Assembly: GCA_013287605.1 (NCBI GenBank)
Contig: JABDDM010000011.1
Span: 1 to 45,048, forward strand
Source of the DNA: Ignavibacteria bacterium
GTDB lineage: Bacteria > Bacteroidota > Ignavibacteria > Palsa-1295
Length of the DNA: 45,048 bases
Reading direction: 5' to 3'
Shown here: positions 2,209-19,214 of the stretch, in pieces
How positions within the stretch are numbered: position 1 is the stretch's first letter
How the letters are laid out: each line of letters opens with the position of its first letter
Notes under the pieces: model-generated
Told to the model about the DNA's origin: nothing
Seen by the model: the letters and a program-made list of their open reading frames with translations, nothing else
Databases searched by the model: none
Program-made: the position numbers and the translations under genes

Positions 2209-5200
2209 TTACTTGACGATCATCAACCTCTTGGTAGTAATGTTATTTCCCGCGACGACCCTGAGGAAATACGTCCCGCTGCGTAGACCAGCCGCATTCA
2301 CCTCCAATTGAAGTTGATAGCTCGTCGGAGTGCCTGTATAGGGCTGCGATATTTTGTTGCCTAAGACGTCATACAACACGACCGATGTATTCAGGCCTTC
2401 CACGTTCAAAAGGTCGACGTGCGTCGATTGCTTCAGCGGATTCGGATAAGCCCTCACCTCGATCGATGATGTATGCTCGGCCTGACCCGCCTTCGGTGGC
2501 AGGGCGATCTTAGCGATCGTATCCTGCCTTACCACTTGCATTGGGATCACATCGAGAATGCTATTGTCATAACTTTCCATCCTTGAAAGTTGAGCCGTGC
2601 TACTCGAGGTGTGCGACGTTTCGAAGCTAATATACACTGAGTCATTTATCGTAAGATTCAGCGTGTCGGACGCCCTTCCGTTATCCGCTAGCGATCCTGA
2701 TTGAGAGAAGCCCTGGGACGTTAGCTGCGCGAACTCCAATGGTCGCACTATGGCGTCCGTATTCGCATTGCGAAGCAGGAAGTTCATGCTCAACGTGTCA
2801 GTTGTCCCTGAGAGGAGTTGAGCGATCGCTGCTGCGGTATCACCAACATTGTAATTCCCTATTCGGAAATATCTCCCAAATTCCAAAACAGCTCCTGGCA
2901 TGAATCGGAAGTTATCCGTTCGCAAGCTCGAGTCTCCATCAGTTGATGAGAGCACCCCTCCGTTCGAAGGGGGCACAGTCACACTGTCCCAGAGATATGG
3001 TCTTCGGCTGTGCCATAATAGCAATTGTGTCGTCAGATCCATATTCCACAACTGACCGTCAGTGTTACGCCCGACAAACTTCGGCTGGCAACCGGATATC
3101 GGCGAGTGAAAGATATATGTCTGCACTCGCGTTGCCGTATCCTTCTCTGTGCCATTCGGGAAATCAACTGTTGAGAGGCTAATGCCATCCGCAAGTGTGT
3201 CAATATGCTTCGGAACACGATACATAAGCGGCTGCAATACTCCTTCCATTCTCGTCCGTGCCGCCATGACGGGATCCTGCGATCTTGTCGTCAGATGTGT
3301 CAAGTCCCAGGGAACGATGGGTTTTCCAGCCATCACCCCGTAGTGCGCGATATGCGCACGATCCTCGAATGGATTCGTCCAGCCAATCCGGCTTAGATCC
3401 TGCCAGCTAGAATCCCCTGGATTGGTTAACCAGTCTGCACCGGAATAAACGGGATAAGTGCTGAGTGAATCGGTTGCTCCTGCAACCACCGGTACATTGA
3501 AGCCAGAGTACGTGGTATAGTTTATCCACTGACCGAAGGGAGAGCGTCGAAGCAACACGGAACTATGTGAACGGGCAGGTGCGCCGTTGTCCCCGGTCCC
3601 CGTATTTGAGATACCATCCCAAACCGCAGCGAGCGCCCGTTCTTGCGTCACATGCATTTGGGGATTGATATTCTCGCACCATGGTAGCGCCGAAGACATG
3701 CAAAATTCACCAGTCGTGTCGATGATCGTTGGACTACCGGGACGTTGGGTGAGTTTAAGAAAGTATATCTGGGAGGAACCGGGCAATCCTGCCTGGAAGG
3801 CTAGATAGCAGGTGTCAATCGCTGGAGGCCCATTGTACGTCCATCCGTGGAATGCTGCAATAGGATGAAGCACACTGGCCACACTAAGTTGTTTCGTTTC
3901 TGGCAAAATCCCGGCGCTTACGGTCTTTTGCGCAATGATGTGACCGGTAGTATCCACGAGAGCTACAACTCCTCCCAAACTCGCATTTCGCCACGCCACC
4001 CAGAAATTCCCATTTGCAGCGGGAGTAATCGACGGTACGGGATGAGCGCCCCCAGCCATTAGCGTCGAGGCAAGGGTATCACGCGGCCCGTAACTATAAG
4101 GGGAAGCGACGTGTGACAGTCGGAAAATCACAAGTGATTGGTCCTTATTTGCGCCGGAGGAATCTATTGCATAAACAAGCCCAACTGTGCCGAAATCTGA
4201 GTTGCATGAGATCGAGGGATTGACAGCATAGTGAGCCGAATCAATCAGACTATCTGCGGGAATGCCATCGACTCGACGATACACACCTATTATTGTATCT
4301 TTCGGGGCCGCTACAAAGAGGCCATTCGAAGCGAAGGTTGAATAGTACGATGAGACGTTGGGGCCAATTTCAGAGGATGTTAAATGGCGGCCGTTATTAG
4401 ACGGATTCGCAACGCCTTTCCCTGTGTGATCGCCCGACAAATCGGTAGCCAAGTAAGGTTCAATCGCCAACAGGTTACCCTGCCCAGGATCCAATACTAC
4501 CTGATAATAACCATTTGCGTCAGGCAACAGTGTAATCCCTGCACTAATGTTGTAAACGAGCACGCTGAAGCCCTTGAAGTTTTTTAGGACGATGTCGCTT
4601 CGTACCTTGAACGCAAACATCCTCGCGTCAATATCCTGAAGTAAAAAGTGCGAATGATCTGTAGAATCGATGGGACTAATCACGCCATTATAGTCGTACA
4701 TAACTGGCCAAGTTCGTGGATTGACGACAATTACGCGAGTGATTGGTGAGGGATCATTCCGCTTGGTCGGATTGGGATTGGAGAAATATCCAATTTGGTA
4801 AAAGCGCCTATCGTCCTGATCGGCAAGGTAAGCAACCCCAGACAGACTAACTGATTGACTCAGCTCTGGATCAGTTTTTGTGACACCACCGGTTGTATTA
4901 TATTCAACAGCTCGTTCTCCATAGCTATAGGGGCGGAGACAACCTGGTCCCACTGTCAGGCACTTGTAACTAATAATATGATCGAGGTCAACTGGTGACA
5001 TCGCTTTTGCCACCTCCCAAGGGGCACCTCCTGTGGTATAAAGACTATTGAAATCAATAGAGCTCTTCCAATCAAGTTGAGAGAGAATCGTCGCAATGGG
5101 AGCGAGATCCTTCCCTATCGTTGTAACAGCCGACCATTTCTCCTTAAAACCTTGATATGCGACCGGACGGGCTTGGATGTTCCGGATGTTACATGGAATT

Positions 5201-8157
5201 ATTAGATCGTCATACCACGTCACCTGGTTAGGTGTCGCCCACAATGGAGAAGGACTGTATCCAGTAAGACTATTCCATACAGTTTGGCCAGTAGTTTGGC
5301 GGTTCCAATCTGTTTTTGCAGAGAGATAATTCTGTGCAAGGACGGTTGGGAATGTGCCATCGTTATCCCAGGTGTGCCAATAGCCAACCCAAGCATCATT
5401 ATCTTGGCACCACAGGCCCGAGGAGAACTTCACCCAGTCGGTGGCAACTGCTCCGGCAGTTATTGGATCCATGTAATAATCCTTAGTTCCGTACTTAGAT
5501 CCAGAACCTGTGTAGGATCCTAGTCCATTAATATATGTTTTTATGAGTTCATGTGTGCCGTCCTCGACTCCGGCAGCAATAATAAACTTCGTAGTGAAGC
5601 AGTCTATTATGGGAACCCATCGCATAGAGCCGGTTTGGGTTCTGTAGACTAGATGATCAGTATACCCGAAACTTTCATTGGGGCCCTTATCGAGAGTATG
5701 GTCGCAGGTTGCTGAGCTCGGAACAGGTGTACCTCCAAGAGCTAAAAATGGCGTCTGCGATTTATCCAGGTCGTAGTTGTAATTTGTTTGGAGAAACTGA
5801 TTCGTGCACCCGATGTTGCCACCTCCATCGTTTCCTATAGTATTGAAAAAAATTCCTTTGGCTCCATAGGATAACGCCGTCCACGCGTACATTCTTGCTT
5901 CAGTAGCAGTCTGTGTTCGCCCTGATTGGAAAGGATACACATGATCCCACTTCGCCCAAGCGTCATCACCTGGATGGGCGGCAAGATTCTGGGTGTGTTG
6001 AGTCGGCTCTGGCGGGAAAATATCCAAAAAATGTTCGTCACTGTTGGTCCAATGATCGGGCGAACTCGCGAGGATGAGTTTCCCAGCCTTTCGGGCAGCA
6101 AATATCTTTTCCATTGCCAGGGTCGCTGTAGTCCCCAGCAAACCATGCTGTAAATAGCTACCCCTTAAATCGAGTGGTCCCCCTATCGAAGAATTCGTCG
6201 GTACGAAGGCATACCATTTTGCATGGTCGCTCACTAAAGAGTTTGCCGGGTTGGCTGCATCCGCCGATGGCTGAAAGTCGGATTTATTCCAGTACTGATA
6301 ATGAGCCAGCCAATCCATCTCGTACGTATCGTACCCGGGAGTGTTTGTAGCAGTGGCGTTGTGAGCAGGATTATAATGTTGCCACAAATGCCCTGTTTCA
6401 TCTGGCAATCCAGTGATAGGTGTTGTGAAACTTCGAAAGTTCGGGTCTTTTGTTAGTGCATTGTAGGTCGCATCCCCCGGGAATGGAATCATCCCTGGGT
6501 CAGGTCCGAATTTTGAAGGATGGTCCCAACTCTGCCCCCCAAAAGTCAAGCCCCCTTCTTCCATGATGGCTACCGGCTGTTGTAATGTCTCATCCTCATA
6601 TGTTGAACGGTACCATGCGTACATGGGCATATTTTCATAATGCACAACAGTGTTATCTGGCTTATTCGGGACGTAGAATGCATTCTGACTTGTTTGCGCG
6701 AGGTAGGTAAGAATGTGTTGCCTATGATGAAGGCTCATGCCAGCCTGATTTAGTTTATAGGTATAATTGCCGAAGGCATTATCGATGTAAGCCAGCGCTC
6801 GAAACGCACCAGGGTTACCCATTTCTCCTCCGCACGTGACATAGTTTATTGCGTTCCAGGCATTCCAAGTCCCATCCCGATTCATACTCTGAACAATTTG
6901 CGAGCACACATCCTCGAGGTAATAATTGTTCGTTCCAACTTTATACAGTGGAATACTGCCGGGTACCGACTGTCTATCGTGCAAATGGTTCTCTAAGTTA
7001 TCCATAAAGATGGAACGCAATCGGAAGCCTCTGATATACATATCAGCACGCCCATCTTGCGCTACGGCTGTAAACTTGACGAACTTCGCTACATCAGCAG
7101 GTACGCCTATGTGACCGGGAGACGCCACACGCAGGACAGCATATCTCTGAGTCGGAACCTTCTTAGGGAAGAGGAGTATGTTATTGCTCTCATTAGGGTG
7201 ACTAGCAATGAAGGCTGTTGTCGTTGCTAGAGGCATTGTATATGCGTTGAAATCCGCCCAAGTGATATTTGCGGTTACGGTTCCGATTGCCGTGCCAGAT
7301 GGGCTGACGACGCCCGTCGTCCCATTTACTGTCGCATCTGGATACCATGTAGCTGTCACAGTATACAGCGTTCCAGCAATACTATAATCATCGGGAGGAA
7401 GTCTGTAAATGAAATCGCAGACGATCTGCGCCGAGTTAGGAGCGCCGGTAATAGGATCGATATCCGCACGTGAAGCGCCTGTAGACGAAACAATCCCCCA
7501 AAGAGTATTTAATTGCTGCGGGATGCCCCCTGCCAAAGAGAAATTGTCCAATTCGAGAATCTGGCCTCCATCGTTGGGATTTTGCCCCACGGAACGGACT
7601 TTCCACTCGTGTTCGCCCGACAAAACAAGCCCACCATTATTTGAATTAACCTTGAAAGCTGGATCTTGTTGATTCCAGCTATATCGATCGGCATCAACGG
7701 GCAGCTCAGTGAGACGATCCATCGGGGATATGGCGTTCATCCAGTTGGAGGCAAGAAAATAGCGCGATTCCACGCCAGGCGGATCAGGCGTTCTCAAATC
7801 ACTGATCCATCGAGCAAGAGTACTGCGATCGCTATAGAAGTGGTCGAGCCCATAGTAGCCTTCCATTCCGCTCGGCATCAATGAAAAAAGCTTTGGTTCG
7901 AGGGGTTCTTCATTGCCATTGCTCCAATAGGTATTGAGGCCGGCCGACTGAAATACTTTGATCAGATCCTGTTTCGCACCCCAAGTGACACGGGACGCCG
8001 AACCTGCTGGGCCAATTGAATCCATGTCAATGCCGTACGTGAATCCTCCGAAAGGAAATGTGGTGGTGGAAATCACAGGGACTTGGGTTTGTGCAAATGC
8101 CATTGTCGAGAAAGCATGCACCAATACGAGGACGATTACTATGATGAGTGTTTTCAT
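2209..8157 (-). CDS. Very large secreted protein with T9SS C-terminal sorting domain; possible glycoside-hydrolase-like core
   Basis: The 1982-aa product starts with a clear signal peptide (MKTLIIVIVLVLVHAF...AFAQ). I place the start at ATG 8157 because the frame's extra upstream 21 codons lack signal character. The last 85 or so residues form a type A Por/T9SS sorting domain: YPNPLKQSTHVDL, a VLYDVLGNKI strand, then SGTYFLRVVAGN and final TTKRLMIVK. This predicts export through the outer membrane by type IX secretion. Around the middle, EARMYAWTALSYGAKGIFFN resembles the barrel strand of glycoside hydrolases and putative TIM-barrel enzymes, and many Trp, Tyr and His residues surround it. That is suggestive only; I recognise no named family. 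A strong terminator follows. The next upstream gene also encodes a T9SS cargo. Confidence 0.85.
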   Translation of the reverse strand: MKTLIIVIVLVLVHAFSTMAFAQTQVPVISTTTFPFGGFTYGIDMDSIGPAGSASRVTWGAKQDLIKVFQSAGLNTYWSNGNEEPLEPKLFSLMPSGMEGYYGLDHFYSDRSTLARWISDLRTPDPPGVESRYFLASNWMNAISPMDRLTELPVDADRYSWNQQDPAFKVNSNNGGLVLSGEHEWKVRSVGQNPNDGGQILELDNFSLAGGIPQQLNTLWGIVSSTGASRADIDPITGAPNSAQIVCDFIYRLPPDDYSIAGTLYTVTATWYPDATVNGTTGVVSPSGTAIGTVTANITWADFNAYTMPLATTTAFIASHPNESNNILLFPKKVPTQRYAVLRVASPGHIGVPADVAKFVKFTAVAQDGRADMYIRGFRLRSIFMDNLENHLHDRQSVPGSIPLYKVGTNNYYLEDVCSQIVQSMNRDGTWNAWNAINYVTCGGEMGNPGAFRALAYIDNAFGNYTYKLNQAGMSLHHRQHILTYLAQTSQNAFYVPNKPDNTVVHYENMPMYAWYRSTYEDETLQQPVAIMEEGGLTFGGQSWDHPSKFGPDPGMIPFPGDATYNALTKDPNFRSFTTPITGLPDETGHLWQHYNPAHNATATNTPGYDTYEMDWLAHYQYWNKSDFQPSADAANPANSLVSDHAKWYAFVPTNSSIGGPLDLRGSYLQHGLLGTTATLAMEKIFAARKAGKLILASSPDHWTNSDEHFLDIFPPEPTQHTQNLAAHPGDDAWAKWDHVYPFQSGRTQTATEARMYAWTALSYGAKGIFFNTIGNDGGGNIGCTNQFLQTNYNYDLDKSQTPFLALGGTPVPSSATCDHTLDKGPNESFGYTDHLVYRTQTGSMRWVPIIDCFTTKFIIAAGVEDGTHELIKTYINGLGSYTGSGSKYGTKDYYMDPITAGAVATDWVKFSSGLWCQDNDAWVGYWHTWDNDGTFPTVLAQNYLSAKTDWNRQTTGQTVWNSLTGYSPSPLWATPNQVTWYDDLIIPCNIRNIQARPVAYQGFKEKWSAVTTIGKDLAPIATILSQLDWKSSIDFNSLYTTGGAPWEVAKAMSPVDLDHIISYKCLTVGPGCLRPYSYGERAVEYNTTGGVTKTDPELSQSVSLSGVAYLADQDDRRFYQIGYFSNPNPTKRNDPSPITRVIVVNPRTWPVMYDYNGVISPIDSTDHSHFLLQDIDARMFAFKVRSDIVLKNFKGFSVLVYNISAGITLLPDANGYYQVVLDPGQGNLLAIEPYLATDLSGDHTGKGVANPSNNGRHLTSSEIGPNVSSYYSTFASNGLFVAAPKDTIIGVYRRVDGIPADSLIDSAHYAVNPSISCNSDFGTVGLVYAIDSSGANKDQSLVIFRLSHVASPYSYGPRDTLASTLMAGGAHPVPSITPAANGNFWVAWRNASLGGVVALVDTTGHIIAQKTVSAGILPETKQLSVASVLHPIAAFHGWTYNGPPAIDTCYLAFQAGLPGSSQIYFLKLTQRPGSPTIIDTTGEFCMSSALPWCENINPQMHVTQERALAAVWDGISNTGTGDNGAPARSHSSVLLRRSPFGQWINYTTYSGFNVPVVAGATDSLSTYPVYSGADWLTNPGDSSWQDLSRIGWTNPFEDRAHIAHYGVMAGKPIVPWDLTHLTTRSQDPVMAARTRMEGVLQPLMYRVPKHIDTLADGISLSTVDFPNGTEKDTATRVQTYIFHSPISGCQPKFVGRNTDGQLWNMDLTTQLLLWHSRRPYLWDSVTVPPSNGGVLSSTDGDSSLRTDNFRFMPGAVLEFGRYFRIGNYNVGDTAAAIAQLLSGTTDTLSMNFLLRNANTDAIVRPLEFAQLTSQGFSQSGSLADNGRASDTLNLTINDSVYISFETSHTSSSTAQLSRMESYDNSILDVIPMQVVRQDTIAKIALPPKAGQAEHTSSIEVRAYPNPLKQSTHVDLLNVEGLNTSVVLYDVLGNKISQPYTGTPTSYQLQLEVNAAGLRSGTYFLRVVAGNNITTKRLMIVK

Positions 8158-8221
8158 TGTCAGAATTGAGGATGAGAACTCAGAGACGATTAACGCTCTT
8201 TGAAGGAGTTGGAAAATCAAT

Positions 8222-9934
8222 CTATTTCACTACCAGAACTTGTTTTGTTAGCAACTTTTGGCCGGTGTCGATCTGAAGTTGATAGCTGCCGCTCGCGTGG
8301 ATTCCGAAGTTGATATGAAGCTTCTGTGCACCCAAACTAAGATGCTGCCGGTGATTGTACACAGCACGACCGAGCACATCTCGCAAAGTGATCTCGACCG
8401 TTGACGGATGATCTAACCAAATGGAGATAGTCCCTTCAGCATGAAGCGGATTTGGAAAAATATCAAAACCCGTGGCTGGTAATACCTTTTCTGGTACATC
8501 GCTCCGCTTGACAGGAATTCTTTTGGAGCCATGCACAATCTGAACTGTTCCTACATTAGATTCTCCATTCGCTTTATCGGTTGGAGTGACATACCCTGCC
8601 ATTCCTACAGCAACATCCTCAAGACCATCCGCATCTGCTGAAAGCGTATCAACACTTGTCGGGTAAGGCCAGCCTACGCAACTATATCGCATATCTACGC
8701 TATCATCAAGCGAATTTCCCAAGAGGTAAAAGTTGAAGTCTTGCTCATAATAATCGTCTGACCCACCTACCAGCAATAATGTCTCATCCTTAGAACTGCT
8801 CATTCTGCCGCAATTTGCCATGTATGTCATGTTCGGAGGGCTCTTCAGAACAAACTCGGCGCTATCGGTGGTAAGCCTATGCGATCCAAAGTCAGCTCCA
8901 CCGCGGAACATGAGAATATCGCCACTCCTGGGATCCGCCACGGGGTAGACAGATGGAGAAATGCAGACGAGATCTTGATAGTGTAGGACGCCATGATTAG
9001 GTAAGGCGACCATCGGAAGCGCCCAAGCCAACCACTCATTAAAACTATCGACGCTGGGAATTGCCCTGGCAGCCCAGAGCGTATCTGAATAGAGCGATCT
9101 GAATAGAGTGTCGAGGCGGAAAGGAGGGTTGTTGTGGTAGTAGAAAGTGTTGCCATGCCCATCTCCGGTGATAAGATCATCGCGGCCCACTCCTCTCCAG
9201 TCTCCCTGCACTCCATGTCGCCATTGGTATCTCGCCAAGTATGGAGCCACTGCAACCTCCTCATCTGAGACCGCTGTATCCCTGCTGCCATAAAGCTTTT
9301 CGCCTCCCTTGAAATAAATCAGTCGGTTGGAGTCAAGCACGCCGAGAATCAAAGTCACCGCACCCAGTACGACATCGTCGACCGTGTCGCTGGATAGTCG
9401 CGAAACATAACAATTCATGGCGTCATAGAAGGTTGCGAATCCTCTATAGGAAGGCACCAGAGTGGTATGCCTTGCGGTATCGAAGTTCCCCAAGTCATCG
9501 GCCCAATAAATTGTGGGAGCACCGAGGTCGGGATGGGTGCGAAGAATATCTGTATATCTTTGAGACCGAAAGTGGCCGGTTCGATACTGTCCAACCTGTA
9601 AATTCAGAGTAGTTTTTGCGGAGACTGTGAGGTTATGCAGGTTGAATGTTGAGCCAGCAGAGACGGCTGTGATGAATGGCGGGTTCTCGGGAAGTCCGTA
9701 CATGAGTATTCGACTCTCATTCCGGCCAGGCGCAGGGCCGATATTCATGCCAGAAGAGAGTTGCTGCCAGCTCTTACTTCCATATATAGTATCGATCTCT
9801 CCAGGCTTTCCTACCGTCGGGAAGTAACAGTTTGGATCGAATGCCTGCGCGAAAACACTACCAAAAGAGATGGAAGTTGAGGCAATAACGGCAATCAAGA
9901 GGAGACCTCTGAGGCGCATCGGATGGACTCGCAT
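8222..9934 (-). CDS. Secreted T9SS cargo protein, possible FG-GAP-like propeller
   Basis: The product is about 570 aa. The N-terminus is a signal peptide (RLRGLLLIAVIASTSISF...VFAQ). Starts at 9934 (MRVHP) and 9919 (MRLRG) are both possible; the longest frame begins at 9961. The middle has several loops such as DGHGNTFYYHNN, DTVDDVVLGAVTLILG and DADGLEDVAVGMAGYV, of the kind seen in FG-GAP/VCBS integrin-like propeller repeats. The C-terminus is a T9SS domain: FDIFPNPLHAEGTISIWL, TLRDVLGRAVY, SGSYQLQIDTGQKLLTKQVL. It ends 64 bp before the start of the giant T9SS gene downstream and could be co-transcribed with it. Substrate and function are unknown. Confidence 0.82.
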   Translation of the reverse strand: MRVHPMRLRGLLLIAVIASTSISFGSVFAQAFDPNCYFPTVGKPGEIDTIYGSKSWQQLSSGMNIGPAPGRNESRILMYGLPENPPFITAVSAGSTFNLHNLTVSAKTTLNLQVGQYRTGHFRSQRYTDILRTHPDLGAPTIYWADDLGNFDTARHTTLVPSYRGFATFYDAMNCYVSRLSSDTVDDVVLGAVTLILGVLDSNRLIYFKGGEKLYGSRDTAVSDEEVAVAPYLARYQWRHGVQGDWRGVGRDDLITGDGHGNTFYYHNNPPFRLDTLFRSLYSDTLWAARAIPSVDSFNEWLAWALPMVALPNHGVLHYQDLVCISPSVYPVADPRSGDILMFRGGADFGSHRLTTDSAEFVLKSPPNMTYMANCGRMSSSKDETLLLVGGSDDYYEQDFNFYLLGNSLDDSVDMRYSCVGWPYPTSVDTLSADADGLEDVAVGMAGYVTPTDKANGESNVGTVQIVHGSKRIPVKRSDVPEKVLPATGFDIFPNPLHAEGTISIWLDHPSTVEITLRDVLGRAVYNHRQHLSLGAQKLHINFGIHASGSYQLQIDTGQKLLTKQVLVVK

Positions 9935-10037
9935 ATGATTAAGAACCTCAATATACGGCAATTGTTACATGAGGCACAAATTCTTGCCTCATTTCTTCGC
10001 TTAACTTAACGAAGAATTCATCCCGTTCAACGCGCGC

Positions 10038-11480
10038 TCACCAATGATACTGCAACGAAACCATCGGCGCAACTGGATTTGCCATGCTGGATGAAGTTGC
10101 AGGGCGGCTGTTGGGAAGCAGTGCTACTGCTAGTGAGCCGGGATTGACGCCGATGTTCCAGCCTCGGGTATTCGGAGCATCGGTTGGTTCAAGCGAGTTG
10201 TCGCCGTGGGTCTTTATGCGCTCTTCGGACCCTTTTCCGATCGACGCGACAGTGAGTCCGAATCCAGCAGCAACGCCGAGAACAACGGGTAGGGAGAATC
10301 CCCAGACAGAAGCGCTGCTGAAGTTTGAGCCTGTTACTATGATAAATCCAAATCCGTATCCGACCAACGCTCCGGCAGTAGTGCCGAGAATTACGATATT
10401 ACCTTCTCCCGTCGAAAGTCGCTTCCCTGCCATTAGGCTATGGGCAAGTGCAATTGCACCCACGTTTCCAACAAGTGATGCAATAGCGAATCCTGAGGCC
10501 TGCGGTGCCGAAGCGTTCGAGAAGCTGGTAGCGACTACGGAGCTGTAGAGCAGTAGTGTGACGAGGGGCCCGTATAGTCCTGCCGTCAAGACTGTAGAAG
10601 CGTTACCCCGCGTGTATGGCTGGTTGCCGGCCATCATCGCCCCCGCAGCAAACCCGCCAGCGGAGCCCACAAGGCTCAAGCCGCTTCCGAAAGATGGAGA
10701 TGGACTACTATTAAACAAATACGCTAGCGTACCTCCATCAAACATTCCAAATAATCCGCCATAACGGATTATGTCGGCAGTCCCCTCACTCATCTTATTG
10801 TTCTTCGCCACCGTGTATCCGACAACGGTCTCCGTAATTCCTCCGATGGCAGCAAGTACGCCCGCTGCTTGCCCAGAACGTCCGTTTGTAAGCATTACAT
10901 CCAGAGCGTATCCATGCGCCATACCAAGAAAGGAACCCCCTAAAGCAAGCGACGATTCGCCATCGTTCATTTCGGCATTCTGGGTCAACAGCGATGAAAC
11001 GAGATAGCCGCCCCCGCCGATCACGAACGGCAGTCCAGCGGCTAAGCCAACATTGTTACTGTTATAAACAAGTGAAGTTGTGATGAGCGGTCCATAGGCG
11101 AAAAACGATAGGAGCGCCTCCCAAATGAGAAATTTCGAGCGAGAGCTTTGATCAAGCTTCGCATGCGATGAAGTTGCTCCGAGCCGTCTCGACGTCAATT
11201 CGCGCAATAGACCGACCTCAACCGCGGATTTCGGAAATCTGTATCGAGTCACCTTTCCACTATCTTCTCTTGTGATCTCAAGGATGAAGGTGCTGTCGGG
11301 CTTCATGATCAGATGAGCTTCCTGGAAGGGCTCATACGAAGGCAAGAGATCGTATTTAGCTTGCATGTCTTTGTCGACCACCGTGATCTGTCCGGCGGAA
11401 TCGAACGGAACTTCAACCTCCTGTGCAGAGACGACAGAATGCAAGCAGAGGAATACAAGAATGAGAGTGAGGATCTTCAT
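10038..11480 (-). CDS. Repeat-built envelope protein with signal peptide
   Basis: The 480-aa product starts at ATG 11480 with a signal peptide (MKILTLILVFLCLHSVVSAQ); the longer frame to 11531 adds a non-signal stretch. Residues 21-115 form a soluble region. From about residue 129 the protein consists of about five Gly/Ala-rich hydrophobic repeats starting near 129, 185, 244, 303 and 373. Each has a pattern like GG-x2-G-M/P-x3-G, two hydrophobic stretches, then N/K-x2-M/L-S-x-G. The chain ends VSLQYHW, a terminal aromatic as in outer-membrane barrels. It could be a small-residue-rich helical membrane protein or a repeat-derived barrel. I do not recognise the family. It is divergent from the SBBP gene. 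Confidence 0.75.
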   Translation of the reverse strand: MKILTLILVFLCLHSVVSAQEVEVPFDSAGQITVVDKDMQAKYDLLPSYEPFQEAHLIMKPDSTFILEITREDSGKVTRYRFPKSAVEVGLLRELTSRRLGATSSHAKLDQSSRSKFLIWEALLSFFAYGPLITTSLVYNSNNVGLAAGLPFVIGGGGYLVSSLLTQNAEMNDGESSLALGGSFLGMAHGYALDVMLTNGRSGQAAGVLAAIGGITETVVGYTVAKNNKMSEGTADIIRYGGLFGMFDGGTLAYLFNSSPSPSFGSGLSLVGSAGGFAAGAMMAGNQPYTRGNASTVLTAGLYGPLVTLLLYSSVVATSFSNASAPQASGFAIASLVGNVGAIALAHSLMAGKRLSTGEGNIVILGTTAGALVGYGFGFIIVTGSNFSSASVWGFSLPVVLGVAAGFGLTVASIGKGSEERIKTHGDNSLEPTDAPNTRGWNIGVNPGSLAVALLPNSRPATSSSMANPVAPMVSLQYHW

Positions 11481-11594
11481 GGCGCAATATACGCAGGGAA
11501 AGTGGGTGTCTAAGGTGCAATCCCATTGCATCCTTGTCGAGACGAATTCATCCGGCGCCGGTCGGGTTAAATAACTTCATCCCGCCAGTCTATT

Positions 11595-14500
11595 ATGATG
11601 AGAGCGTGTGCTGTGTTCGTCGTTTTTGTGATGGTGGCTGCGAAGTCCTACGCGCAGCCATCGGCCATTCAGCACGCCCTGCTGGATTCCCGCGTTCGCG
11701 GGAATGACACGTCCCAATCTTCATCCTTCATCCCTCATCCTTCAGCCTTGCCCGCTGATTCCCGCATTCGCGGGAATGAGACGTCCCATTCTTCATCCTT
11801 CATCCCTCATCCTTCAGCCTTGCCCGATTGCTCCATGGAATTTATTCCGAACCTGGGGCAGCTCTCGGGTAAGCACGGTGAGGCGCTGCCGGATGTGAAT
11901 TATTATTCCCGGTACCGAGGTCTGACGATTTATTACTCACCAAGAGGGATGCAGTTCTTCTTCTCGCGCTTGATCCGAAAGCCCGATGTCTATGTCAGCA
12001 AATTTGCACCTCCCGGCATTCATGATCCACGCGGCGATACGTTGTTCTCGTACCGCGTCGATCTTAGTTTTGTTGGTGCAAACAGTGCGGCGAAGATCAT
12101 TCCTGATGAAGTGCTCGATGATCATTCCAATTACTATATCCCCCGCTTCCCAAATGGCCTGACCGATGTACCCGCCTATGGATCTCTCCTCTATCGAGAG
12201 ATATATCCGAATATCGATATGCGGATCTACAGCACTGAGCGTGGGATGAAGTATGATTTCGTAGTGCATCCTGGTGGTGATCCTTCGAGAATCCGAATGC
12301 ATTATGATGGGCCAGATAGTCTCATAGCGGCGAATGGCGTTGTGACGATCTATTCGCCATTCGGGACGCTCACCGAAGCGAAGCCTCTTTCCTATCAATC
12401 GCTTCCTTCCGGTGATATTGCCAGCGGACTTCAGAGCAGCGTGCCTACGAGCTATGTCCTGAGTGGTCACGATCTCACGTTTGCGATTGGTGCATATGAC
12501 ACGAGCATGCCGCTCGTGATCGATCCTCCACGGGTCTGGGGCACATACTTCGGTGGCAGCAGCTACGACTGGTTTATCGGAAATCGTGTGGATCACAACG
12601 ACAACATCTTCGTAACTGGAACATGTCTTAGTGCGGGGTTCGGAACTGCTGGCACACATCAGGATACGCTGAACTCGCTCGACGGTTATAATTATGATGG
12701 TATCGTTGTAAAATTTAGTCCGGCTGGTGCCCGGATATGGTCAACGTATTATGGTGCAGGTCTAACGGAAGGTTGGGGCGTTGCAATTGATCGCGCCCAG
12801 AATGTGATTGTTGATGGTCACACGTTCGATGATACCTGCATAGCGACGTCAGGCGCATTCCAGACTCGTCTAAATAATAATACTCCCGGCGACCATGCGT
12901 GGGATGGGTTTATCGCAAGCTTTGATTCTCTCGGTCATCGGTATTGGGGGACGTACTTCGGCACAGCAGATACTGATCTTGTCTATGATATCGCTGCCGA
13001 TTCTGCAAATAATATTGTGATCGTCGGTTATACGTCAAGCACTTCCGGCCTTGCATCTCCTAGCGCGTACAAGACGAGCAGAGTTCGCACGGCTTCGTAT
13101 GATTACGGCGGATACATTGCGAAGTTTTCCTCAGGAGGGACACGCCTGTGGTCCACGTACTATGGCGACACAACGAGCAACTGCCTTGGCGTTTGCATCG
13201 GCGCCGGAGATTCGGTGATCGTTAGCGGCACCACAGTTTGCAAAGCTGGGATCGCAACAGCGGGCGTTTATCTGAGCACGCTCGCAAATTATGTTGCAGG
13301 CTACATCGTAAAGTTTTCGTCATCGGGTACACGGAGCTGGGGCACCTATGTCGATGGTGCATCAGGCTATTACGGAACCGCTATGTATGGCGTTGCGTCA
13401 GGAGCTGATGGCTCGATCTATACGTGCGGCGTAACGTGGGCGGCTACGGGACTAGCCACTGCGAATGCCTATCGCACGTCAATTCCAAGTGGGAATGACG
13501 CATCCATCTTAGAAATATTTGATGCAAGAGGCAATCGGCTTGCTGGCACATACTATGGAAATTCTATTCGCTCCGAGATCGGGTTTCGCGTTGCCGTTGA
13601 TCCCGATGGGAATGCGTACGTTGGCGGATGGACCGATGATAGCACGCACATCGCAAGCGCAGGAGCGTTTCAGAGTTCGGTCATTGATACGAATGTCTCC
13701 TTCCTTGCAAAGTTTTCAAAAGATGGTGCGCGCAGATGGGGCACGTATTTCGCCGGCAATGGTCATCCAGGCGGCTGGGATCCGATCTATGGTCTGGCGA
13801 TCGATCATCACGAACATCCCATTATTTCAGGATTAACAGGCAGTGATTCCGGGATCGCAACCAGCGGATCGTTTCAAAGCACGTATGGAGGAGGAAGCAC
13901 GATTTATGGCGATGGCTTCCTGGTTAAATTCTGTGACACATTAAAGACTCACCTTCGATTTGCGAGAGATAGTCTCATGTGCTTTGGCAGCATTGACACG
14001 CTCGCAACAACACCGGGTTACATAAGCTATCAATGGCGGCGTGGCGGCACAATTATTCCGGGCGCTACGTCAAGTCGTTACGGCATTCCAATTACACAAG
14101 CGCCTGGGTCTTATCTCTACACCGTCGACATCGCTGATCCAAGGATCTGTGTCTCTACGACCGACACGCTAACACTGGTGATCCGAGCGCTCCCAAGCAT
14201 TAATGCCGGACCAGACAGAATAACGTGTCTGAAGACCGGCGTGCAGATCGGCAATGCGGCAACGGGAGGGCTTGCGCCGTATCAGTATCATTGGGTACCG
14301 GACTCTGGATTGAGTTCTTCCTCGACGGCGTCTCCAATTGCCACGCCAAAACGTACGACACAGTATATCGAGATCGTTACAGATTCAAACGGATGTCAAT
14401 CGCAGGATACTGTGATCGTAACGGTTCGTGGTCTTCCTCAGATGATCGCTCCGCCCAATGTTGTTTATTGTGTTGGAGGAAGTAGTGCAATCGGAACTCC

Positions 14501-17183
14501 GGCAATAGGAGGAGTTGCGCCGTACACATATAGCTGGACGCCAGCATTGGGACTGAGCGCGACAAATGTAGCGCAACCAATCGCTTCTCCAGCAAACTCT
14601 ACGACGTATCACGTTCATATCACTGACGCGAATGGCTGCGATAGCTGGGATACGATCAATGTCGTCGTGACTGCTCCGCCTGTTGTGACGCTTGTTCCGT
14701 CAGGCCCGCAAAAGATCTGCGTCGGGGATTCGCTCAGGATATTCGCGCCAAGCGGGATGGCTTCATATCAATGGTCGGATGGTGAAACGAGCAGATCCAT
14801 TCTCGCGAGACAATCCGGAGCCTACTCGGTTGCTGTGCAGGACGTCAGTGGCTGTTCCGGCAAGAGTGACACCGTTGTGTTAACAGTAATCGCAAAACCA
14901 TCGCCTTCGATTGCAGGTCCAGATGCTGTTTGTCCGTTATCGACTGCAAGCTACGCAACGCCATTCGATCCGAATGCTCGATATAATTGGACGCTCTCCG
15001 GCGGAGGCACGATCACAAGTGGCGCAGGCGCTGATAGCATAACGGTTAACTGGACGCTTACTGGTACCTGGAAGGTAATGCTTCGTGATTCTAATACTGC
15101 CGGTTGCGAACGAGATACCTCGCTGATGGTAACAATCGGCACGACGCTAATACCAAGTATTAGCCCTGCCGGACCGATAACACTTTGCAAAGGTGACAGC
15201 GCGGTTCTGCACGCTCAAAAAGGGTTTACGACATATTCCTGGAGTAGTGGACAGAGTGCGGATTCGGTCGTTGTGTCGAAGTCCGGGAATTACTTTGTTA
15301 CAGTAACTGGATCCGGTGGTTGCACTGGCACTTCGCAGGTCGTTGCGGTCAAGGTAATCTCTACTGCCAAACCGCAGCCGAAACTTGTGGCGACGAAAAC
15401 GGTACTTTGTGCAGGCGATAGTTTGCAGCTAGCTACAACGCAAGGATTTGCATCGTATCAATGGTCAAACGGTTCTACAACTGCTTCGATTGAAGTCACG
15501 CACGCAGGCACATACGCTGTCGTTGTTACAAACTCCGACGGGTGCATGGGTATATCGGATAGTGTGAAGATTACAACAGGCCCAATACCACAGGCTGTTA
15601 TCACGCCAGGCGGACCGGTTACATTCTGCTATGGCGATAGTGTAAGACTTACTGCGACAGCTGGCGGTGCGTCCTATTTGTGGTCAGATGGTGAAACGGG
15701 GTCTTCCGTCGTTGCGAAGAGCACGGGTGATTATTCGGTAACTATCCAGAATGCCGCTGGCTGTTCAGCTACTTCCCTTCCTGTTCATGTGCGTGTTGGA
15801 GCTCAACTCAAACCAGTTATCACAGGCCCTTCCGCGGTGTGTCCAAATTCGCAAACAAATTATTCGATCACAGCGATCAATGGAACAACCTATAATTGGG
15901 CAGTTACAGGCGGGACGATCGCGAGCGGACAATCGACAAACTCAATAAACATTAACTGGGGAGCAATCGGAACAGCAACGATCGCGATAACGCAGACCGA
16001 CACAGCCACTGGATGCCTGGACAATTCTGTGATCAACGTAACAATCGATAATAATCTTGTGCCTGATGTCACAGCAAGCGGTCCCCTTGCCTTCTGTCAG
16101 GGTGATTCTGTCACACTTGACGCTGGGGCAGGTTATGCAGCCTATCAGTGGCTGTTGAATAATACACCACTCGCTGGAGCTACGCGGCAAACACTCACCA
16201 TACTGGCGAGTGGCAACTATAGCGTCTTCGTAACAAATAGTGGAAGCTGTCAGGGAACATCAAAGACAATGGCGGTGACGGTGAATCCTCTTCCTGTCGC
16301 ACCGGTCATCACACAGTCTGGTTCGACGCTGACGAGCACATCGGCAATTAGATATCAATGGAGCTTGAACGGTACGCCAATAAGCGGTGATACGAGCCAG
16401 ACACTCGTTGCAGCAACATCAGGAGACTACACGATTCTAATATTCGATCAGAATGGCTGTTCTGCTATTTCAAATCCGTTTACATATCGCGATAGCGGTA
16501 TGACGGTTGTCGCGGTTCCAGCACTTTTGCAGGCGAATCCCTCAGATCCAGTGCAGATCCCGCTCGAATTGCTTTCTTCGCAGAACGTAGTGCAAAGCGG
16601 ACCGATGCATTACACCGCATCACTGCGCTTCAACAAAACTTTGCTTGCGCCTTCTGGTCAAACGCCTCCAGGTGTCATTCAAGGCAATGATTTGATCGTC
16701 ACCATCAGCGGCACCAATCCGCTTCCGCTCGGGACGACTGCCGGTACGCTGAGGACTCTGGACTTCATTGCAACACTTGGCAATGATACGTGTACGGATG
16801 TATCTATCGACGCCTTCCAGTGGACTGATGGCGCTGTGAGTGTATCGCGAAGAAGCGGGCGGTTCTGCCTGACGGGTGTATGTGAAGCGGGGGGCAAAGT
16901 GCGACTCATCGATCCGAATGTGGAGCTAAGTCTATCACAAAGCCATCCGAACCCCGCGAAAGGGAATGCTCAAGTCGAGTATGACCTTAGAGAGCAGGGG
17001 GAAACAGAACTCTATATCACCGATCTAATGGGCCGCGTCGTGAAGACCGTTGTGACCGGCACGCAGATACCGGGCCATTACACAGCGCAATTCGATCTCA
17101 ATGGTCTCGCACAGGGAACGTACATCTACATTCTCCAGACTCAGAGTGGGAAGCTTTCGCATTTGATGCAGATCATTCGATAA
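11595..17183 (+). CDS. Giant SBBP/Ig-like repeat secreted protein with T9SS sorting domain
   Basis: This 1862-aa protein has a signal peptide (MMRACAVFVVFVMVAAKSYAQ), then about 48 residues encoded by two copies of an inserted repeat (residues 29-79). Residues 81 to about 300 (MEFIPNLGQLSGKHG onward, with YREIYPNIDMRIY) match the DUF7948-type domain that precedes SBBP repeats. Residues 310-790 hold seven-bladed beta-propeller (SBBP) repeats with a recurring pattern G(T)YFGG...D...G...T. Residues 795-1620 hold many Ig/PKD-like modules with recurring FCQGDSVTLDAG and YQWS motifs. A cohesin-like module follows, then a T9SS domain (HPNPAKGNAQVEYDL, LYITDLMGRVVKT, QGTYIYILQT). It is likely a surface adhesin or scaffold. 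The OmpA-like gene follows after 12 bp. Confidence 0.88.
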   Translation: MMRACAVFVVFVMVAAKSYAQPSAIQHALLDSRVRGNDTSQSSSFIPHPSALPADSRIRGNETSHSSSFIPHPSALPDCSMEFIPNLGQLSGKHGEALPDVNYYSRYRGLTIYYSPRGMQFFFSRLIRKPDVYVSKFAPPGIHDPRGDTLFSYRVDLSFVGANSAAKIIPDEVLDDHSNYYIPRFPNGLTDVPAYGSLLYREIYPNIDMRIYSTERGMKYDFVVHPGGDPSRIRMHYDGPDSLIAANGVVTIYSPFGTLTEAKPLSYQSLPSGDIASGLQSSVPTSYVLSGHDLTFAIGAYDTSMPLVIDPPRVWGTYFGGSSYDWFIGNRVDHNDNIFVTGTCLSAGFGTAGTHQDTLNSLDGYNYDGIVVKFSPAGARIWSTYYGAGLTEGWGVAIDRAQNVIVDGHTFDDTCIATSGAFQTRLNNNTPGDHAWDGFIASFDSLGHRYWGTYFGTADTDLVYDIAADSANNIVIVGYTSSTSGLASPSAYKTSRVRTASYDYGGYIAKFSSGGTRLWSTYYGDTTSNCLGVCIGAGDSVIVSGTTVCKAGIATAGVYLSTLANYVAGYIVKFSSSGTRSWGTYVDGASGYYGTAMYGVASGADGSIYTCGVTWAATGLATANAYRTSIPSGNDASILEIFDARGNRLAGTYYGNSIRSEIGFRVAVDPDGNAYVGGWTDDSTHIASAGAFQSSVIDTNVSFLAKFSKDGARRWGTYFAGNGHPGGWDPIYGLAIDHHEHPIISGLTGSDSGIATSGSFQSTYGGGSTIYGDGFLVKFCDTLKTHLRFARDSLMCFGSIDTLATTPGYISYQWRRGGTIIPGATSSRYGIPITQAPGSYLYTVDIADPRICVSTTDTLTLVIRALPSINAGPDRITCLKTGVQIGNAATGGLAPYQYHWVPDSGLSSSSTASPIATPKRTTQYIEIVTDSNGCQSQDTVIVTVRGLPQMIAPPNVVYCVGGSSAIGTPAIGGVAPYTYSWTPALGLSATNVAQPIASPANSTTYHVHITDANGCDSWDTINVVVTAPPVVTLVPSGPQKICVGDSLRIFAPSGMASYQWSDGETSRSILARQSGAYSVAVQDVSGCSGKSDTVVLTVIAKPSPSIAGPDAVCPLSTASYATPFDPNARYNWTLSGGGTITSGAGADSITVNWTLTGTWKVMLRDSNTAGCERDTSLMVTIGTTLIPSISPAGPITLCKGDSAVLHAQKGFTTYSWSSGQSADSVVVSKSGNYFVTVTGSGGCTGTSQVVAVKVISTAKPQPKLVATKTVLCAGDSLQLATTQGFASYQWSNGSTTASIEVTHAGTYAVVVTNSDGCMGISDSVKITTGPIPQAVITPGGPVTFCYGDSVRLTATAGGASYLWSDGETGSSVVAKSTGDYSVTIQNAAGCSATSLPVHVRVGAQLKPVITGPSAVCPNSQTNYSITAINGTTYNWAVTGGTIASGQSTNSININWGAIGTATIAITQTDTATGCLDNSVINVTIDNNLVPDVTASGPLAFCQGDSVTLDAGAGYAAYQWLLNNTPLAGATRQTLTILASGNYSVFVTNSGSCQGTSKTMAVTVNPLPVAPVITQSGSTLTSTSAIRYQWSLNGTPISGDTSQTLVAATSGDYTILIFDQNGCSAISNPFTYRDSGMTVVAVPALLQANPSDPVQIPLELLSSQNVVQSGPMHYTASLRFNKTLLAPSGQTPPGVIQGNDLIVTISGTNPLPLGTTAGTLRTLDFIATLGNDTCTDVSIDAFQWTDGAVSVSRRSGRFCLTGVCEAGGKVRLIDPNVELSLSQSHPNPAKGNAQVEYDLREQGETELYITDLMGRVVKTVVTGTQIPGHYTAQFDLNGLAQGTYIYILQTQSGKLSHLMQIIR
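11685..11828 (+). repeat. Two tandem 72-bp repeats carrying ATTCCCGC/GCGGGAAT dyads, in frame inside a gene
   Basis: Two near-identical 72-bp units start at 11685 and 11757. Each has the dyad ATTCCCGC-N4-GCGGGAAT (11686-11705 and 11758-11777), then ACGTCCCA and a TTCATCC-type tract ending CAGCCTTGCCCG. Being a multiple of three, the pair adds 48 codons without breaking the frame. They are read as SRVRGNDTS and SRIRGNETS followed by SSFIPHPSALP. The dyad is the same as in the spacer at 1811-1905. Confidence 0.9.
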
Positions 17184-17195
17184 AAAGTATCAAGA

Positions 17196-19214
17196 ATGAA
17201 ACATCTGCGTTTGCATTTGTCATCAACGATCATTCTCTGCTGCTTATCGGCAGCGACGATAGTCCATGCACAGAAAGATAGCGCGAGTGTAGCATCACGG
17301 TTTGCATCACGACCGAGTATCGGCGTGATTGGTGGAGCAAGTCTCAATGAGTATCAGACTGGGTTCCGATATCTTCCGGGCGTAGCGGCGTGTTCGCCAG
17401 TGTATCAAAGCGGTCATGGTCTCGGTGGAAATTTCGGCGCGCTTGTGAATATGCCTCTGTCTGACACTATCGCTTTGAGCCTTCGTCTTGTCTATGCAAT
17501 GGATGGTGGCACGTTAATCACGAATGAAGCAACCACGATCAGTGTGGGCGGAATTGCAACCGCTGCCAACATTCAACACACGATCCAGACTTCGCTGGGG
17601 CTTCTGGATTTCGAACCAGGTGTCAGCTTCCAATTATTCTCTCGATTCAGATTATTCGCAGGCGCTGGTTTGGGTTATCTCCTTTCGACAAGTTTCGATC
17701 AAAAGGAAACCTTGTCACAACCCGCAGATTTCGGCGTATTCGAGAATGGCTTGCGAGTGCGCAACGAGCAAACTGGGAAATTGCCGAATGCAGCGACGTT
17801 TGTCGCTTCCCTCATTGGAGGAGTGAACTGTCAGATTCCGCTCAATGCAGCGAAGACGCTAAGTGCCGTACCGGAATTAAGCTGGTCGCAGTGGCTGACC
17901 TCACCGGTAAAGGGATTGTCATGGAATGTTGGCAGCCTTCGAGGCAGTATCGCAATACTCTACACGATTCCAGAGACCCCGCCTCCGCCTATTGCACCAC
18001 CACCACCTCCACCTGTGCTGCGAAAGATCCCTGCACTCATCGCTTCTATTAGTGCGCGAGGTATCGATACTGACAGCAGCGAGTCGCCTGTCGCAACAGT
18101 GAAGGTCGAAGAGATTTATGAGACGCATCTTGCCCCGCTTGTTCCTTATTTGTTCTTCGATGAGAATTCCTCCGAGCTTGCAACTCGATATCGCACGTTC
18201 GATAAGGCACAGGTCGATACGTTTGCGCTTCGTTCGTTGAACGGGACGGACCGACTGACAATGTATCATGACGTGCTGAATATTTTGGGGCGCAGATTGC
18301 AGGATCAGCCCGATGTTCACATTATGCTAACAGGTTGCACTGCAATGGGTAGCGAAACCGGAGGGAAGGTGCTCTCGAAGACAAGAGCCACTACTGTCAA
18401 GAATTACCTCACAGAAATATGGGGCATCGCTCCGGATCGGATCAAACTAGAGGCACGAGAGCTGCCGCAGAATTTCTCACCACGTTCGGACTCTGATGGC
18501 ATTGCCGAAAATCGCCGAGTTGAGATCGCGAGCAACGACCCTGCAATCCTTGCGCCGCTTGCACTCTCCGATACCCTTCGGAAGTCCACGCCACCATTGA
18601 TTCGCTTCCATCCTACGGCAACCGCCGAAGCAGGCGTCGCATCATGGCGCATCGATGTCTCGCAGGATGGCTCTCCGTTGAAAGCATTCAATGCGACCGC
18701 ATTGCCAAAGACGATCGACTGGGATTTGAACAATGATCAACAGCACGTTCCGCGTGCACCTGGTAAGCTCGACGTCCATCTAACGGTCGCCGATTCGACC
18801 AATGCCGTCGTGAGAGCAAGCGATACGCTTGAAGTCATGCAGTTAACACTTCGTTCAAAGAAGCGGGAGTTTGCCGGTGATGCCGAGATCCAGCATTATA
18901 GTCTGCTCCTGTTCGATTTCAAATCGTCCGAACTTACGAATCGAGATCGCGAGGTACTGAAGTTCATCAAAAGTCACATTGTGAAAAATTCGGTCGTAAC
19001 CGTTGAAGGTTATGCGGATCGTATCGGCAACGCAGAAGTCAATCACAAACTCGCGAGCGCTCGAGCACAAGCCGCCGCGGCTGTGCTGGGCGCAGAGAAT
19101 GGAACCGTCTCAGGCAGTGATCAACTACTTTACGACAATGCGACTCCAGAGGGAAGATTCTACTCACGCACCGTGGAAGTGACGATCACAACGCCGAAAA
19201 CAACCGCCCCATAA
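17196..19214 (+). CDS. Outer-membrane protein with two OmpA-like peptidoglycan-binding domains
   Basis: The 672-aa product has a signal peptide (HLSSTIILCCLSAATIVHAQ) and then about 230 residues of alternating strand pattern (GVIGGASLNEYQTGFRY..., FRLFAGAGLGYLLS), as in outer-membrane barrels. A proline-rich linker (PPPPIAPPPPPPV) follows. Two OmpA-type regions come next. The first starts VPYLFFDENSSELATRYR and has CTAMGSETGGKVLSKTRATT and ENRRVEI. The second, at about residue 565, starts LLLFDFKSSELTNRDREVLK and has VEGYADRIGNAEVNHKLASA. Such domains bind meso-DAP peptidoglycan. The gene lies 12 bp after the SBBP/T9SS gene, so the two are probably one operon and may act together at the surface. 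Tandem OmpA domains are uncommon. Confidence 0.85.
   Translation: MKHLRLHLSSTIILCCLSAATIVHAQKDSASVASRFASRPSIGVIGGASLNEYQTGFRYLPGVAACSPVYQSGHGLGGNFGALVNMPLSDTIALSLRLVYAMDGGTLITNEATTISVGGIATAANIQHTIQTSLGLLDFEPGVSFQLFSRFRLFAGAGLGYLLSTSFDQKETLSQPADFGVFENGLRVRNEQTGKLPNAATFVASLIGGVNCQIPLNAAKTLSAVPELSWSQWLTSPVKGLSWNVGSLRGSIAILYTIPETPPPPIAPPPPPPVLRKIPALIASISARGIDTDSSESPVATVKVEEIYETHLAPLVPYLFFDENSSELATRYRTFDKAQVDTFALRSLNGTDRLTMYHDVLNILGRRLQDQPDVHIMLTGCTAMGSETGGKVLSKTRATTVKNYLTEIWGIAPDRIKLEARELPQNFSPRSDSDGIAENRRVEIASNDPAILAPLALSDTLRKSTPPLIRFHPTATAEAGVASWRIDVSQDGSPLKAFNATALPKTIDWDLNNDQQHVPRAPGKLDVHLTVADSTNAVVRASDTLEVMQLTLRSKKREFAGDAEIQHYSLLLFDFKSSELTNRDREVLKFIKSHIVKNSVVTVEGYADRIGNAEVNHKLASARAQAAAAVLGAENGTVSGSDQLLYDNATPEGRFYSRTVEVTITTPKTTAP

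Follow-up and report, generated by a model that had tools for sequence, protein, structure and literature searches.

Proteins of the outer membrane are nearly all β-barrels, built from strands and not from helices. A gene on the minus strand of the 45,048-nucleotide stretch of Ignavibacteria DNA analysed here (the window) raises the question of whether one chain can join the C-terminus of such a protein to a membrane part made of helices, and of which membrane it would then occupy. An initial annotation, made from the letters of the sequence, contained just this tension between an outer-membrane-like end and helix-like repeats. Most of our evidence indicates that both are true, the location itself being read from sequence.

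The chain starts with a signal peptide and an N-domain of ~90 residues, continues with ten helices and closes with a C-terminal tail that has an outer-membrane-type strand motif. In window coordinates its parts are as follows.

10038–11480, minus strand: whole gene, 480 residues, ATG at 11480, stop codon at 10038–10040
11424–11480, minus strand: signal peptide, residues 1–19, with an AxA-like site followed by Gln20
11148–11423, minus strand: N-terminal domain, residues 20–111 (strands and a helix), also found on barrel-like proteins
11067–11147, minus strand: helix H1 (B), residues 112–138, opening half of the fifth unit, which is split
10887–11051, minus strand: unit 1, H2 (A) and H3 (B), residues 144–198
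10713–10865, minus strand: unit 2, H4 (A) and H5 (B), residues 206–256, with Glu217 conserved in H4
10524–10697, minus strand: unit 3, H6 (A) and H7 (B), residues 262–319
10332–10502, minus strand: unit 4, H8 (A) and H9 (B), residues 327–383
10206–10307, minus strand: helix H10 (A), residues 392–425, closing half of the fifth unit
10041–10163, minus strand: C-terminal tail, residues 440–480, with two short predicted strands (pLDDT <50), ending in the outer-membrane-type motif LQYHW

We preferred the start at 11480 to an alternative in-frame ATG upstream, at 11531, because relatives align from 11480. As pointed out in the initial annotation, the chain has a signal peptide and ends in Trp. Of 32 members, 31 have Gln at residue 20 and 30 have Ala, Ser or Gly at residue 19, while a lipobox cysteine was found in none. 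The Bacteroidetes Q-rule places Gln right after the signal peptidase site, and one abstract states that the rule is not valid across the entire FCB group; we therefore treat Gln20 as supportive only. Glu217, conserved in 28/32 members, is the sole strongly conserved acidic residue inside a helix. Of the 36 aligned rows, the loop and energy tests left out four, one of them lacking the N-terminus and the other three being incomplete frames, from loci that overlap; the profile self-alignment left out only these three.

The repeat is a helical hairpin

The protein had been described as five tandem repeats, for which a self dot plot was proposed as a check. That check failed on the single sequence, where the best 25-residue self-match (score 38, offset 59) did not reach the 95th percentile (42) in 200 shuffles and was thus not above chance. 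The repeat is nevertheless real at the level of the family profile, whose self-alignment (33 sequences) scored 87.0 against 36.9 ± 3.0 in 60 column shuffles, with a shuffled maximum of 44.7. The repeat unit is an A-B helical hairpin, with H1, H3, H5, H7 and H9 of type B and H2, H4, H6, H8 and H10 of type A. No other of the 126 balanced labellings matched the contrast of this odd/even split (8.18 for equal parity, 5.17 for unequal), and the count of five is therefore better expressed as four complete hairpins plus a fifth that is divided between the two ends, making ten helices in total. H1 is the weakest fit to its helix class. The register first proposed was right, as the repeat starts given near residues 129, 185, 244, 303 and 373 fall in the B helices H1, H3, H5, H7 and H9. 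The end motif proposed for each repeat (N/K-x2-M/L-S-x-G followed by GG-x2-G) has an exact match in a single unit (NNKMSEG...GGLFG, residues 227–245) and approximate ones elsewhere, and is not general.

Glycines at a spacing of four are among the best conserved sites (G182/186/190, G245/249, G272/276/280, G370/374 and G402/406), and the full GxxxGxxxG spacing is present at 182/186/190 and 272/276/280. With one half of the fifth hairpin in H1 and the other in H10, the simplest arrangement would be a closed ring, and the repeat pattern suggests such a ring of hairpins.

The repeat part is predicted to be helical

AlphaFold models, both built on 9 sequences, contained ten helices for the window protein (pLDDT 67.4, pTM 0.60) and likewise for a relative that lacks the N-domain (pLDDT 72.6, pTM 0.71). 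The two short strands in the tail of the first model, at pLDDT <50, are absent from the second. Furthermore, conservation inside the model helices peaks at 100 degrees (z 5.4), with no peak at 160–180. The suggestion that the small-residue hydrophobic stretches are helices is thus borne out by both models and by the conservation period, and most evidence indicates that the repeat part of the protein is helical and not strand-built. Foldseek returned nothing from the PDB at E 0.001, and the best VIA fold matches in the PDB (Z 6.0 over 66 residues and 5.6 over 98) fell in a range that is common according to the tool. A designed single-chain barrel with five inner helices, ranked second in one of the PDB fold searches at E 0.77, was treated as a chance match.

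Family, distribution and gene neighbourhood

A first contig scan with the single protein as query recovered zero relatives. The homologue search called for by the initial annotation did find them: matches occur in 17 of 61 genomes, the window's own among them, in 43 of the 294 genomes of the class and in 23/395 genomes of the phylum, some of these outside the class, where all three counts include matches to the N-domain alone. The named relatives are metagenome-assembled Bacteroidota, including one labelled Candidatus Kapaibacterium and one Balneolales. The family is present in several Bacteroidota lineages, so that a cultivated host may exist. Tandem paralogues, two adjacent in each region, are seen at L051, L052, L054 and L091 (genomes G155, G281, G050 and G175).

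The earlier statement that no described family has this layout stands. Pfam gave no credible family among 18 members at E 0.5 (best 0.038), NCBIfam gave no credible match and PDB sequences gave none by profile at E 10, and thus no known multi-pass family in these three collections matched over the full length. A catalase, the best PDB sequence match (E 0.58), was judged not credible. The layout is likewise undescribed in the open-licence literature searched, a coverage outside which many subscription papers lie. We therefore found no published description of this family of envelope proteins with five glycine-rich hairpins.

The neighbours are enzymes and housekeeping genes, conserved only in small lineages, and among them we found no functional partner. 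The flanking ORFs at 2209–8220, 8222–9961 and 11595–17183 of the window encode proteins with C-terminal domains for type IX secretion, one of which also has SBBP repeats and DUF7948; no link between such proteins and the gene was found in relatives. Near its start (about 11680–11830), a 1862-residue ORF has the peptide DSRVRGN..SSSFIPHPSALP in repeated copies, which resemble an interspersed DNA repeat that has been translated. A further ORF at 17196–19214 (plus strand) has an OmpA-type C-terminal domain and a weak match to an N-terminal barrel.

The C-terminal motif and the shared N-domain

A strict C-terminal strand motif is present in 30 of 52 family members compared to 3 of 312 other ORFs, a contrast that is somewhat favourable because the motif was picked, after the sequences had been viewed, to follow the barrel rule. 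Some of the 22/52 members without the strict motif have an extra tail beyond it.

The N-domain profile matched in 65 of the 294 genomes of the class. Within 20 fetched regions, 28 ORFs carry the N-domain, none of them (0/28) with a full ten-helix match; among these N-domain ORFs without the full helical part, 17/28 end in F, W or Y and 15/28 meet the strict motif. Pfam gave a single match to these relatives, a sub-threshold one to OMP_b-brl (L047), and none in 10 others and none in four more. Because Pfam is blind to nearly all of them, the label 'barrel' derives from the C-terminal motif and the general look of the sequences, which hint that these relatives may be barrel-like. The 90-residue N-domain itself has no Pfam match and is common to the helical family and many barrel-like proteins of the class (L048, L049, L050 and L147–L166); it is an undescribed envelope module.

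Some proteins combine the N-domain with less of the helical part. At L157 (700–1518, plus strand) the N-domain is joined to a single glycine-rich helical hairpin, and at L050 (1522–3285, plus strand) and L161 (683–2191, plus strand) it is joined to one glycine-rich hairpin with a barrel-like part behind. One-hairpin proteins of this kind are a possible ancestor of the five-hairpin chain. Modules also appear to be swapped between proteins of the L088 and L152 types: at L088 (1192–2451, minus strand) the helical part lies behind a DGT-x-L-x-G-x-V stretch common to L152 (14/33 identical), where the stretch sits between the N-domain and the barrel-like part.

Which membrane

An envelope location, as first proposed, holds up, and we turned to hydrophobicity and loop composition for the choice of membrane. 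The helix cores are 3.8% charged and 19.5% glycine, compared to 2.6% and 7.6% in SecY. Of 320 helices, 310 have a predicted insertion ΔG above zero and 10 have one below zero, whereas about half of the SecY helices have ΔG <0 and the other half ΔG >0; the hydrophobicity scale and ΔG parameters behind these values were entered by hand and calibrated on SecY and other ORFs treated alike. A count that does not depend on the models gave ΔG <0 for 5/308 segments, as opposed to 131/255 in SecY from the same clade, and of 237 ORFs outside the family, 13 were multi-segment, 11 of which had at least two segments with ΔG <0. A passage in PMC11845990 reports ΔG >0 for outer-membrane helices of the Wza type and of T4SS and ΔG <0 for bitopic inner-membrane helices, and a passage in the review PMC13067283 states that Sec sorting depends on hydrophobicity.

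The loops carry 1.15 K+R each on the N-domain side and 0.68 on the other side, an excess present in 20 of 23 representatives (<45% identity). Lying behind a cleavable signal peptide, the N-domain should be outside the cytoplasm, and the loop charge thus reverses the inner-membrane rule. The SecY control obeys the positive-inside rule (K+R 4.5 cytoplasmic, 0.84 periplasmic), with a bias far stronger than that of the family. The turns on the N-domain side are nearly invariant, with 1, 1, 1 and 2 distinct lengths in 32 members compared to 5–9 for the remaining loops; however, the cytoplasmic loops of SecY are also length-invariant, and invariant turns alone therefore fail to tell which membrane.

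Taken together, these features favour an α-helical outer-membrane protein. We put at about even the chance that the chain is a polytopic protein of this kind, whose five glycine-zipper hairpins would form a single-chain helical ring, a proposed pore or scaffold. The same ten hydrophobic helices with few charges would also suit a polytopic protein of the inner membrane, where helical polytopic proteins normally sit, with a cleaved signal peptide and a periplasmic N-domain and tail, for example a transporter or an envelope scaffold. DsbD has a layout that resembles this arrangement, SecY has genuine inner-membrane helices with ΔG >0, and the conserved Glu217 in H4 could be a functional site. An inner-membrane location is nonetheless rather unlikely in our judgement, given how few segments have ΔG <0 compared to SecY, a loop charge that is inverted for an N-out protein, the C-terminal strand motif, and an N-domain that barrel-like proteins also have.

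The last two of these properties, together with the signal peptide, the glycine-rich composition and a shallow alignment, would fit an outer-membrane β-barrel in which AlphaFold had misread glycine-rich strands as helices. The helical period of the conservation led us to drop this reading, and the GxxxGxxxG spacing and the ten helices in both models also speak against it, so that we regard it as very improbable. The low predicted insertion energy of the helices could instead mean that they pack or aggregate without spanning a membrane, in a secreted or periplasmic protein; the glycine-zipper proteins CdzC/D aggregate on the Caulobacter cell surface, according to the abstract of PMC5380434. We consider such a protein improbable, although less so than a barrel, in view of the ten membrane-length helices, the alternation of invariant and variable loops and the low core charge. 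Furthermore, no type I secretion genes were recognised among the scanned neighbours.

If the helical outer-membrane protein is the correct reading, Sec would export the chain and signal peptidase I, judging from the site, would cut before Gln20. Its weakly hydrophobic helices may escape trapping in the inner membrane, which would let the chain reach the periplasm, where the C-terminal strand motif, of the kind used by barrel proteins, could bring it to the assembly machinery. We hypothesize that the five hairpins then pack via their GxxxG faces into a compact membrane bundle, which would place the N-domain, the four invariant A-B turns and the tail on the periplasmic side and the variable acidic loops outside, and that the product is a single-chain helical ring serving as a pore or scaffold.

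Comparison with known systems

Such a protein would raise two questions: whether the machinery that assembles barrels can also deal with helices, given a ten-helix chain with a barrel-type C-terminal signal, and how so hydrophobic a chain would pass the inner membrane. The barrel-like proteins at L048, L152 and L161 have the same N-domain, but a membrane part other than the ten-helix repeat. TspO of Rhodobacter sphaeroides is a polytopic helical protein that has also been reported in the outer membrane; it is said to have five helices and no signal peptide. When expressed in E. coli, TspO went mainly to the inner membrane, according to a passage in PMC2911597. Wza and other OPX exporters, and VirB10 of type IV secretion, likewise have α-helical outer-membrane segments with ΔG >0, as stated in PMC11845990. 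These proteins are oligomeric with one or two helices per chain, whereas the family described here has ten predicted helices per chain and no sequence relation to them was found. The open-licence literature yielded no bacterial single-chain polytopic helical outer-membrane protein of settled location.

The closest system in working principle is SlyB, which we take to belong with Rick_17kDa_Anti (PF05433) and whose ring is reportedly built from a glycine-zipper helical hairpin. A passage in PMC13067283 describes ring-shaped transmembrane complexes of SlyB in the outer membrane, and the original report, a Nature 2024 paper, is referenced in PMC13082787. The PF05433 profile matched none of 18 members at E 0.5, and the GxxxGxxxG helical hairpin of the PF05433 kind that is present here (G182/186/190, G272/276/280 and G370/374) is thus a resemblance and not membership. 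SlyB is an oligomer of a small lipoprotein, whereas the family described here has five hairpins in one chain and no lipobox.
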